The notes below the pieces were generated by a model. It was not told the origin of the DNA. It saw nothing but the letters and a program-made list of their open reading frames with translations, and made no database searches. 64,000 bases of DNA from Cellvibrio zantedeschiae (GTDB lineage Bacteria; Pseudomonadota; Gammaproteobacteria; Pseudomonadales; Cellvibrionaceae): the NCBI RefSeq assembly GCF_014652535.1, contig NZ_BMYZ01000001.1:124001-188000 (forward strand). Reading direction: 5' to 3'. Numbering within the stretch: position 1 is the first letter of the stretch; each line of letters opens with the position of its first letter. Position numbers and translations under genes: made by a program. This document shows, one piece after another, positions 54,411-57,334 of the stretch.

Positions 54411-54500
54411 TTTTTTAATTCCAGTAGTGAAGATGAATGAAATCGTAGAGGTAGCAAGCTAACTAAATTTGCGTTACAGGTATTGATTTTTTACCACAGT

Positions 54501-54512
54501 CGCTTGTTATGC
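54501..54512 (-). repeat. attC-like core at the end of the cassette array (rest missing)
   Basis: GCATAACAAGCG on the minus strand overlaps the stop codon of the next gene, exactly as the three full attC sites begin. The rest of a VCR-like stem is not recognisable downstream, so this terminal site is either truncated or a very short degenerate attC. Confidence 0.5.
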
Positions 54513-54914
54513 ATTTTTTCCCGAGAGGAAATATAAAATGTACCCAGAAAAAATTAACTCACCATTTTCAATTGCATGGCGAAATTCTTGCTTTAACTCT
54601 GACTCGCTTTTAAAAGTCGTAGGTGATTTTGAACTCTGTAAAAATCCGCAAAGCCTCCATTCATCAAAACCATTATATTCACCATTAGCCCCAAAATCGA
54701 AGTCAACTGGACCAGACGATAAACGAACCGCGCAACCATAACCATGCTTAAAATATTTTACTCCACCTTTTAATTCACCCTGCAGGCTAATACCAGACGC
54801 AGCCCATTCCATATTACTCTTTGGTAATGCAATGCCTGAAGCATCCAAAAGCTCAATAGCTTCATTGACGGCAGACAAATAACTTTCAATTAGCAATTTC
54901 AGTTTTTCATTCAT
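54507..54914 (-). CDS. Cassette gene 4: DUF6896-like protein
   Basis: A 135-aa soluble protein. The centre GGVKYFKHGYGCAVRLSSGP, then VDFDFGANGEYNGFDEWRLC, resembles the DUF6896 family as I recall it, with unknown function. It is bounded by attC-like sequence on both sides: its stop overlaps an attC core at 54506, and attC-A lies 4 bp before its start. No promoter is evident inside the cassette. Confidence 0.65.
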   Translation of the reverse strand: MNEKLKLLIESYLSAVNEAIELLDASGIALPKSNMEWAASGISLQGELKGGVKYFKHGYGCAVRLSSGPVDFDFGANGEYNGFDEWRLCGFLQSSKSPTTFKSESELKQEFRHAIENGELIFSGYILYFLSGKNA

Positions 54915-54917
54915 ATT

Positions 54918-55058
54918 GCATAACGCCGAGCTAAGCGGCAGTTTTTAAGTTGCGGTTTTGTGGAATATTTTTGCGCAGCAAAACCACAAAGCCGCGACTT
55001 AAAAACTGTCTAGCGCAGGCACGAAGTGCCGGAGCGGTGCTGCAACGACTTGTTAAGC
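54918..55058 (-). repeat. attC site A (VCR-like)
   Basis: A 141-bp imperfect palindrome. On the minus strand it starts GCTTAACAAGTCG (overlapping the stop of the upstream gene) and ends CTCGGCGTTATGC. The central arms are CAGTTTTTAAGT...CTTTGTGG and CCACAAAACCGC...ACTTAAAAACTG, with a further small hairpin (GGCACTTCGTGCC). Start TAACAA and end GCGTTATG match the VCR/VPR class of integron recombination sites. Confidence 0.88.
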
Positions 55059-55784
55059 ATATAAGGTTACACTAAGTTTTCTAGCAAAATAATAAAATTT
55101 GCTACGCATAATTGCGCCCATATTTATTCTTCTCACCTGCTCTACACTAAGAATTGGAACATGAAATGAACAAATAAAGCACTGAGCTGGTGTAAATGGA
55201 ATTATGAATTCACCCTCTGGATTGTCAGAAACGATGAACTCAAGCAATTTGCTTTGTGCAACGAACCACTTTAGGTTCGGATTTCTCAAAATAAAGGAAT
55301 CAATTGCCATTTGCATGGTGATACCACGCTTAAAATGCATGGGGACTACACCACCTTCTTCTATGTAGATAGTTTGCTTTAATTCTAAATTTAATTTTTG
55401 CTCATCGGTTAGTGTATTTCCAGTAACGCCAACCAAATTTCCTGACATAGACTCATCATAACTTTCGATTGAGGAGCGGAGGCACCAAAGAGCATAAAAC
55501 TCAGAAATAATTTCATTATCTTTGCTTGAGAGAACGCGGCAACCAGAAGCTAAGACTCTTTCGACAACGGACTGATAATTATCCTCAATTTTCTTACCAT
55601 AACCTTGCTCTGCACGCTGATCCCAAAGTCGATGAACACAAAACATTTTGTTCCGAGGATTAGCTGGAAATGTATTATTACCCTGAATTCGATGAGCTTG
55701 CACCATACCTTTTTCATTACAAAATCTTTCAATTGATTTACTTGGTAGTACATGCTGATTTTTAACCAGTTCGTTGCTCACCAT
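55053..55784 (-). CDS. Cassette gene 3: DUF4238-like protein
   Basis: A 243-aa protein. The N-terminus NQHVLPSKSIERFCNEKG and the later SDNPEGEFIIPFTPAQCFIC segment are typical of DUF4238 proteins as I recall them, of unknown function and common in mobile or defence-related neighbourhoods. Its TAA lies in the first core of attC-A and its start is about 10 bp after attC-B, so gene plus attC-A form one cassette. Confidence 0.7.
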   Translation of the reverse strand: MVSNELVKNQHVLPSKSIERFCNEKGMVQAHRIQGNNTFPANPRNKMFCVHRLWDQRAEQGYGKKIEDNYQSVVERVLASGCRVLSSKDNEIISEFYALWCLRSSIESYDESMSGNLVGVTGNTLTDEQKLNLELKQTIYIEEGGVVPMHFKRGITMQMAIDSFILRNPNLKWFVAQSKLLEFIVSDNPEGEFIIPFTPAQCFICSFHVPILSVEQVRRINMGAIMRSKFYYFARKLSVTLYA

Positions 55785-55794
55785 TTCTCCGAGG

Positions 55795-55927
55795 GCTTAG
55801 CGCCGAGTTCAGCGGCAGCTTTTAAGTTGTGGTTTTGTGGAATACTTTTGCGCAGCAAAACCACAAAGCTGCGACTTAAAAACTGTCCAGCCAACGAAGT
55901 TGGTGATGCTTGAGCGACTTGTTATTT
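55795..55927 (-). repeat. attC site B with altered crossover core
   Basis: A 133-bp relative of attC-A with the same central arms (AAGTTGTGGTTTTGTGG / CCACAAAGCTGCGACTT). On the minus strand the distal core reads GCGCTAAGC, where the others have GCGTTATGC or GCGTTATTT: the invariant GTT is GCT. This may impair recombination at this junction. The variable terminal segment also differs from A and C. Confidence 0.82.
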
Positions 55928-56503
55928 TTTACACATATTTTCAATCAATTTGTAATTTTTGCTTTCTTCTTTAACAAAAGAACCGGAAACTTCTCTAATT
56001 TCATACAGTTTTGCAGAACAGTCCTTTCCTCTAGGTGTTGAAACAATGTCATAAACAGCTTCATAGTTTGCGTTTTCTACAGGCGTGAATTCAATTTTTT
56101 TCATACACCAAGAATACTCAATTGAATAAAGCGATATGCCGGATATTCCAACACCAGCAAAAGAAAATGCAATTGGCTTGTTCGCCTCAACTTTTAGCTC
56201 AGTCTGTTGCTTTTTCGGCACCGCGCTATCATAAAGAGGCATACCAATGATTCGGCCCGCTTGACGATCAGCCACTAGATTTGCCTTTATACCTAAAATT
56301 GCCATTTCATCACTAGGCGCAGGTCTAGGCGCAATGCAATCAACGCCTCGATTAATAAAAACATCGTTATTATTACCCGGAATTGCCACTAAACGTAAAT
56401 TTGCTGTTTTGCTGTCTGGGTTAGCTTTATATCCGCTGGTTGTGCAAGCACATAGCAAATTAATATTTGCGATTATAATAAAAATTTTTAATGATGTTTT
56501 CAT
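55922..56503 (-). CDS. Cassette gene 2: lipoprotein of unknown function
   Basis: A 193-aa protein with a lipoprotein signal (MKTSLKIFIIIANINLLCAC, lipidated Cys about 20). The mature part has no family I recognise; it contains INRGVDCIAPRPAPSDEMAI and four further cysteines. It should sit in a membrane facing the periplasm. Its stop overlaps the attC-B core and attC-C lies upstream. Many integron cassettes encode such exported orphans. Confidence 0.7.
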   Translation of the reverse strand: MKTSLKIFIIIANINLLCACTTSGYKANPDSKTANLRLVAIPGNNNDVFINRGVDCIAPRPAPSDEMAILGIKANLVADRQAGRIIGMPLYDSAVPKKQQTELKVEANKPIAFSFAGVGISGISLYSIEYSWCMKKIEFTPVENANYEAVYDIVSTPRGKDCSAKLYEIREVSGSFVKEESKNYKLIENMCKK

Positions 56504-56522
56504 TTGCTTTTTCCCTTAGATA

Positions 56523-56663
56523 AAATAACGCCGAGTTCAGCGGCAGCTTTTGAGTTTTGGTTTTATGGAACACTTTTGCGCAGAAAAACCATAAAACCAC
56601 GACTTAAAAACTGTCCAGCGCAGGCACGAAATGCCGGTGCGGTGCTGGAACGACTTGTTAGCA
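56523..56663 (-). repeat. attC site C (VCR-like)
   Basis: A 141-bp palindrome like attC-A, including the GGCATTTCGTGCC hairpin and the CAGTTTTTAAGTCGTGG central arm. It starts TGCTAACAAGTCG, overlapping the stop of the next gene, and ends CTCGGCGTTATTT on the minus strand. Similarity to A is stronger than to B. Confidence 0.86.
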
Positions 56664-56993
56664 TTGTTTTAAAACTACCGATTTAACAGGATCCGCATTA
56701 GAACCAAGATTTGGGATGTGCAGAGAGATGATACTCTCAAGCGAGTAAGCGGTCTCAATAGCCTGTTCCGCTTGGCGGTTATAGTTTCGATTGAAAAGAC
56801 CGTTAAGATCTATTACGTCTTTTTTTCCGCTCCAAACATCTTCAAAATCCTCTTTACTTATTTCAGCATACATTGACCCACCACCATGAGCCGCAGCTTG
56901 GATGCTTACCCAGTAGCGAATCTTTTCGTTACTGGAGTTAAACAATAGTACACCCTTGTTTCGATACAGTTGAAATTCCATTTTTTCTCTCAC
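56658..56993 (-). CDS. Cassette gene 1: unrecognised 111-aa protein
   Basis: A small protein with no family I recognise; it reads MREKMEFQLYRNKGVLLFNS, then IRYWVSIQAAAHGGGSMYAE and ISKEDFEDVWSGKKDVIDLN. The ATG at residue 5 (about 56981) is an alternative start. It is the first cassette in the window's array; attC-C follows it. No attC is seen upstream, so it is next to the array's promoter-proximal side. Confidence 0.6.
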   Translation of the reverse strand: MREKMEFQLYRNKGVLLFNSSNEKIRYWVSIQAAAHGGGSMYAEISKEDFEDVWSGKKDVIDLNGLFNRNYNRQAEQAIETAYSLESIISLHIPNLGSNADPVKSVVLKQC

Positions 56994-57334
56994 TCGCTCA
57001 CTAAATTTTCAGAAAAAAATACAAATAATTCTAGCTTAACTATATTTTTCGTATAACTCGTACTGAGATGCTAACAGTTTACTAGATAGCGCCAACTATA
57101 TAACCCGCAGATTTGTAAGCCAAGTAATTTATGGCTTCACCGTATAACCCCAAAATAATAATTTAATTGGGCTGAAATAAATTTTAAGTCAACCAAATGG
57201 TTGAACTATTCTCTCAATTAATTTTAGAGTTATACAGCGAGATCATTACCACTTAAAATAACAATAACGTGTTCCGGCTATTGCTGCTTTAAGTGGCAAA
57301 AGAAAATAAAAGAATGCTGCGGGAGTGTGCGGCT
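56994..57334. other. Gene-free stretch at the promoter side of the cassette array
   Basis: About 340 AT-rich bases without a supported gene. It has no recognisable integrase gene or attI. It contains CAACCAAATGGTTG at 57190-57203, identical to the ArsR-operon operator, and on the minus strand TTGACT overlaps this site, a possible -35 box pointing toward the cassettes. Confidence 0.5.
57190..57203. promoter_or_regulatory. Second copy of the palindrome CAACCAAATGGTTG
   Basis: Identical over 14 bp to the operator at 52698-52711. It lies about 200 bp upstream of the first cassette gene. The minus-strand TTGACT within and beside it may be a -35 element. Confidence 0.5.

Follow-up and report, generated by a model that had tools for sequence, protein, structure and literature searches.

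An integrase-less cassette array headed by its own attI site in Cellvibrio zantedeschiae and related heads across the Cellvibrio group

The cassette array and its attI leader

The window analysed here is the whole 64-kb stretch C1:124001-188000 of the 4.27-Mb genome of Cellvibrio zantedeschiae (G000). It contains three palindromes (140, 132 and 140 bp long, minus strand) that alternate with four minus-strand genes, an arrangement already recognized in a preliminary description of the sequence and confirmed here together with the open reading frames (Table 1). An attC site is understood as an imperfect palindrome of 55-150 bp that carries R'' and R' boxes at its ends and lies between cassettes, and the three repeats have these properties according to both a covariance model (R1) and folding. 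R1 was built from 21 attC sites in other arrays of the same genome, with the window sites excluded, and gave 126-145 bits at all three repeats, bearing out the attC identity proposed earlier; the best other match across the window reached 12 bits (opposite-strand reads of the three repeats aside). Fold z-scores compare the attC sites as single strands with shuffled sequences. That such repeats might occur genome-wide unconnected to genes was also checked, and the repeats found elsewhere are cassette arrays too. The window cassettes have no DNA-level match in the other arrays fetched from this genome, and a search of Rfam returned no family at the array, just sub-threshold microRNA matches to the palindromes.

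Table 1. Features of the array and its leader (positions within the window)
Feature	Position	Strand	Description
Leader inverted repeat, left arm GCTGTATAACTCT	57216-57241	-	folds with right arm, z -2.9
Leader inverted repeat, right arm GGGGTTATACGGTG	57138-57157	-	folds with left arm
attI leader (head module)	57072-57241	-	homologues C5:5470-5638, C2:1456-1621, C1:2146441-2146604 (matching stretch 57070-57239)
Putative cassette promoter Pc, TTGGCT - 17 bp - TATAGT	57095-57123	-	spans the start of the core
attI core GGGTTATATAGTTGGCGCTATCTAGTAAACTGTTA	57072-57106	-	34/35 bases as in the attI beside intI on contig C5
attI crossover G^TT	between 57075 and 57074	-	conservation ends there
Cassette 1	56529-57074	-	orphan ORF 56658-56981 (107 aa from ATG; GTG at 56993 possible) and attC
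attC of cassette 1	56523-56662	-	140 bp; R1 129.7 bits, E 6e-40; fold z -3.0
Cassette 2	55801-56528	-	lipoprotein-like ORF 55922-56503 (193 aa) and attC
attC of cassette 2	55795-55926	-	132 bp; R1 126.4 bits; fold z -2.7
Cassette 3	54924-55800	-	DUF4238-like ORF 55053-55784 (243 aa) and attC
attC of cassette 3	54918-55057	-	140 bp; R1 145.2 bits; fold z -5.7
Cassette 4	54506-54923	-	DUF6896 ORF 54507-54914 (135 aa); attC reduced to R'' box
IS1111-type element end, remnant	54454-54505	-	inserted in fourth attC; matches end of intact G004 copy

In each repeat the R'' box (TAACAAG) overlaps the stop codon of the preceding ORF, as had been described for the core TAACAA. The claim that every repeat also ends in a typical core holds for two of the three, in which R' is GCGTTAT, and fails for the middle site (cassette 2), which is mutated to GCGCTAA. 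The G^TT crossover is correspondingly intact in two attC sites, changed to GCT in the middle one (GCTAAGC versus the expected GTTAAGC) and cut off in the fourth. The 5' end of a cassette is expected to be the reverse complement of the R'' box of its own attC, and this relation is exact (7/7) for cassettes 1 (GTTAGCA, R'' TGCTAAC), 2 (GTTATTT, R'' AAATAAC) and 4 (GTTATGC, R'' GCATAAC); cassette 3 (GCTAAGC, R'' GCTTAAC) matches at 6/7, its one mutated base being part of the middle attC's crossover triplet. At the array end, the box GCATAAC (54506-54512) is all that is left of the fourth attC, where an IS1111-type element, of which one end is preserved, has inserted; its intact copy in G004 carries an IS110/IS1111-type transposase ORF. 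Intact relatives of this element occupy attC sites in G004 and G007. The mutated middle R' and the IS-truncated last attC indicate that the window array is partly decayed, so that this copy may no longer be active.

The cargo agrees with what had been read from the translations, comprising two proteins without a family, a weak DUF4238 match and a DUF6896 protein. The cassette 4 product belongs to DUF6896 (PF21837; E 6e-34, 117.3 bits, above the Pfam gathering cut-off of 27), and the cassette 3 product matches DUF4238 (PF14022) marginally, with 31.3 bits against a gathering cut-off of 27 (E 1.8e-7); its plasmid homologues are about 30% identical and several are annotated DUF4238. The cassette 2 protein, whose N-terminus resembles a lipobox by eye, has no family in Pfam, NCBIfam or PADLOC, and the cassette 1 protein has no match in these collections or in plasmid records. 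NCBIfam and PADLOC returned zero matches for all four proteins.

Just upstream of the first cassette lies an attI copy, contrary to the earlier statement that the window holds none; it lies 72 bp beyond the interval of 54501-57000 originally given to the array. With the attI leader and the remnant of the fourth attC with its IS end included, the unit extends over about 54454-57241. The leader is homologous to three others in the genome (BLAST E 1e-25 to 3e-21; 74-75% identity, with 74% for C5 and 75% for C2), and the four share a terminal 35-bp core, GGGTTATATAGTTGGCGCTATCTARTAAACTGTTA, after which similarity stops at G^TT. The site is homologous to an intI-adjacent site and ends at the G^TT insertion point, as expected of an attI, and its first cassette bears, as a 7/7 match, the sequence mark of insertion there. 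It looks functional, and binding and recombination by IntI are predicted for it.

A putative cassette promoter is present in each of the four heads of the genome. Its score of 9/12 in a sigma-70 consensus scan is by itself not above chance; across 30 leaders its -10 hexamer is conserved at 97-100% and the TTGG of its -35 hexamer at 90-97%. The inverted repeat of the leader (57138-57241) resembles attC R''/R' boxes and is kept in most leaders. A 54-bp hairpin with arms 81% complementary (57246-57299) lies between the CBS-domain gene and the leader.

Heads elsewhere in the genome and in the Cellvibrio group

No intI lies in cis within the 64-kb window, so the array is not a complete integron, and this part of the preliminary description stands; the genome as a whole does hold one intact intI, on contig C5 (5685-6698; 390.6 bits against TIGR02249, curated cut-off 265). 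The C5 leader fills the space from the intI start to the first cassette, where attI belongs in the usual divergent layout. The attI heads found in the genome number at least four, namely the one on C5 with intI and three satellites without it (the window, C2 and C1:2146 kb), and no intI fragments occur near any of the three satellites. Compared with the C5 attI, the satellites are identical at 104/105 core positions and at 279/380 positions in the 125 bp before the core (about 27% differ; Fisher p 3e-11), and past the crossover similarity is about 22%, i.e., the sequences are unrelated. Both ends of C4 carry array pieces, which probably belong to the arrays of C5 and C2 and were separated from them at assembly. 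Another array with attC of the same family (L099, C1:2363143-2364611) has no attI leader within 3 kb and is preceded by an attC of another type. In G020, orthologues of the flanking CBS-domain and exonuclease/phosphatase family genes are adjacent, 136 bp apart, with neither leader nor attC between them, and this locus represents an empty site.

Approximately 30 leader heads are distributed over 11 of 21 Cellvibrio-group genomes, most of which have several copies. Three complete single-contig genomes carry 4-5 heads each (five in G016, five in G013 and four in G007), all away from any intact intI. Only G000 and G004 have a leader next to an intact intI; in G001 it adjoins a broken intI and in G003 a 31-residue intI fragment. 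Among the 30 leaders, conservation drops from 97-100% to background directly after GTTA, and none was seen to end elsewhere than at G^TT. A model-detected attC lies downstream in the correct orientation, with none upstream, in 24 of the 30, and the other 6 have no model-detectable attC within 1.5 kb. The core pattern (at most 3 mismatches) matched four times in the C. zantedeschiae genome and not at all in 390 other genomes sampled across the order, and no leaders were found in plasmid or phage records.

Four groups of IntI protein can be told apart in the genus, at about 40-60% identity. The leader-type attI goes with the one that includes G000 and G004b (80% identical); in more distant members of the same clade the attI ends in AATAAACTGTTA. 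In a tree of the leaders, the four of C. zantedeschiae cluster (100/99) with one leader of the nearest relative. The matching IntI type is absent from several head-bearing genomes (G016, G007 and G013), where the heads may therefore be relics. The complete single contig of G016 has five attI heads, 45 attC-model matches and zero intI above the family cut-off. G004 has two complete integrons (C2:106332-107267 and 2994155-2995102), whose IntI proteins are of different types (41% identical) and whose arrays have about 18 and 70 attC sites.

Insertion marks, turnover and competing readings

In 20 of the 23 heads whose first attC could be detected, the start of the first cassette is the exact complement of the variable triplet of its own R'' box, compared with a mean of 1.6 and a maximum of 7 in 20,000 shuffled pairings; all three C. 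zantedeschiae satellites match 7/7. This match is a sequence mark of insertion by an integrase, the trace left when a circular cassette integrates at that attI. The possession of its own attI and of an insertion mark on its first cassette makes the window array an integrase-less head rather than a debris CALIN.

Cassette turnover at fixed loci is also apparent. Orthologous heads with the same chromosomal flanks on either side form three groups and differ in their first cassettes: G001_C18/G016_1477, G007_2865/G016_1358 (with one 198-aa cassette in common) and G013_2560/G016_1879; G013_3161 has the upstream flank of the first of these groups. In G016, all five heads have in common a 45-bp left junction, which within that genome is confined to them and which intI-linked copies lack. 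This sharing of an integrase-less junction implies that loss of intI preceded dispersal of the heads, in which case their differing cassettes would have entered later through an integrase from elsewhere. The 45-bp left piece of the G016, G007 and G013 leaders reads GCCCAAAGCGGACAG..AGCCAAATGAGCGC.G.AACTAATTGAG and is found at attI heads only. As to how heads are copied, the leader inverted repeat and the extra left junction of G016-type heads offer leads.

Two blocks considered as signs of cassette movement were rejected. A 1.4-kb block 97.6% identical in two G016 arrays holds IS3-type ORFs inserted in attC, and a block common to G004 and G007 arrays contains an IS110/IS1111-type transposase ORF. 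The IS3-type element of G016 (two ORFs, L160:11365-12551) lies at an attC R'' box, and its G007 copy is 85% identical.

We consider, with good confidence, that the four cassettes of the window stand behind an integrase-less integron head, most likely served in trans by the C5 IntI or its ancestor. That enzyme would act on the attI of every head, circular cassettes would be recombined into each of these sites, and the putative promoter of each head would transcribe its first cassette, thereby giving the genome several "first positions" rather than one. Trans action by the C5 IntI, promoter activity and activity at the present day are what we infer here. A broader proposal, for which we see the balance as even, is a distributed integron, in which the attI-promoter heads form a non-autonomous dispersed element that multiplied across the chromosome without intI. 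A single IntI would load each head in trans with cassettes of its own, and several first-position cassettes would be expressed in a cell at the same time.

The main rival to service in trans is that the heads are relics, each having once had its own intI and taken up cassettes in cis before intI was deleted, leaving an attI that is now unused. The leaders beside a broken intI in G001 and an intI fragment in G003, the five G016 heads in a genome without an intact intI, and the mutated R' and IS-truncated attC of the window array all speak for such a history. Set against it are the order of events at the G016 junction, with loss before dispersal, the lack of any intI fragment at the three C. zantedeschiae satellites, the retention of the core at 104/105 while the flank differs by 27%, and the different first cassettes of orthologous heads; we therefore judge it unlikely, though worth serious consideration.

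Far less probable is an ordinary CALIN, which would have arisen when IntI placed cassettes at a secondary site of the genome (attG) or when the main array was rearranged. The attC sites do share a family with those of the main array, and attG insertion is described for E. coli (cited in PMC12444791). The genome even offers, at C1:2363 kb, an array that lacks a leader, for which this is the best reading. Insertion at attG does not bring along a 170-bp attI leader, however, and the window array has one that matches the resident attI core; its attI head rules this reading out there. That the leader is a MITE-like or promoter repeat standing before arrays by chance, as its inverted repeat, promoter-like motif and dispersal in the genus might suggest, is hardly credible given its exact attI position beside intact intI in G000 and G004, the end of conservation at G^TT and the integration mark of first cassettes at that very base.

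Relation to known integron systems

Integrons are usually pictured with one attI beside the integrase, and integrase-less clusters are regarded as remnants or stray insertions. The integrase-less clusters of Cellvibrio, as far as their sequences tell, have their own attI and a putative promoter, both apparently kept by selection. With a single intI and several heads, one enzyme could serve several gene-capture sites. If loading in trans is true, several first-position cassettes could be expressed in parallel per genome, and common tools would miss the arrangement, as they seek attI only in class 1 integrons. In this culturable genus it can be tested directly whether a CALIN is an active site of capture or a dead end.

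A CALIN is defined in IntegronFinder as at least two attC sites without a neighbouring intI, and integrons are described there as typically having one attI near the integrase, with attI detection limited to class 1 (PMC9024848). Without such detection outside class 1, attI heads would be scored as plain CALINs. CALINs are common in Shewanella and Xanthomonas and also occur in genomes with intI elsewhere (PMC9229058, PMC12444791). The window array resembles them in consisting of attC cassettes (three attC sites) with no intI nearby, and to this extent its initial classification as a CALIN was apt; it differs in having an attI of its own and a putative Pc at its head, which that classification had not included. 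In the literature searched, which did not extend to subscription journals or preprints, no description of attI-headed CALINs was found.

With sedentary chromosomal integrons the window array shares the attI-first layout, the attC family and the attI core of the C5 integron, whereas it has no intI in cis and is one of several heads per genome. Another relevant comparison is with the delta-attI cassettes of class 1 and 2 integrons, in which a short piece of attI replaces attC at the 3' end of a cassette within an array; they demonstrate that parts of attI are mobile (PMC12901181). In both systems an attI-derived sequence lies away from its normal place, and in the delta-attI system it is recombined by IntI (PMC12901181); in Cellvibrio, by contrast, the entire leader with its attI stands at the front of a separate array elsewhere on the chromosome.
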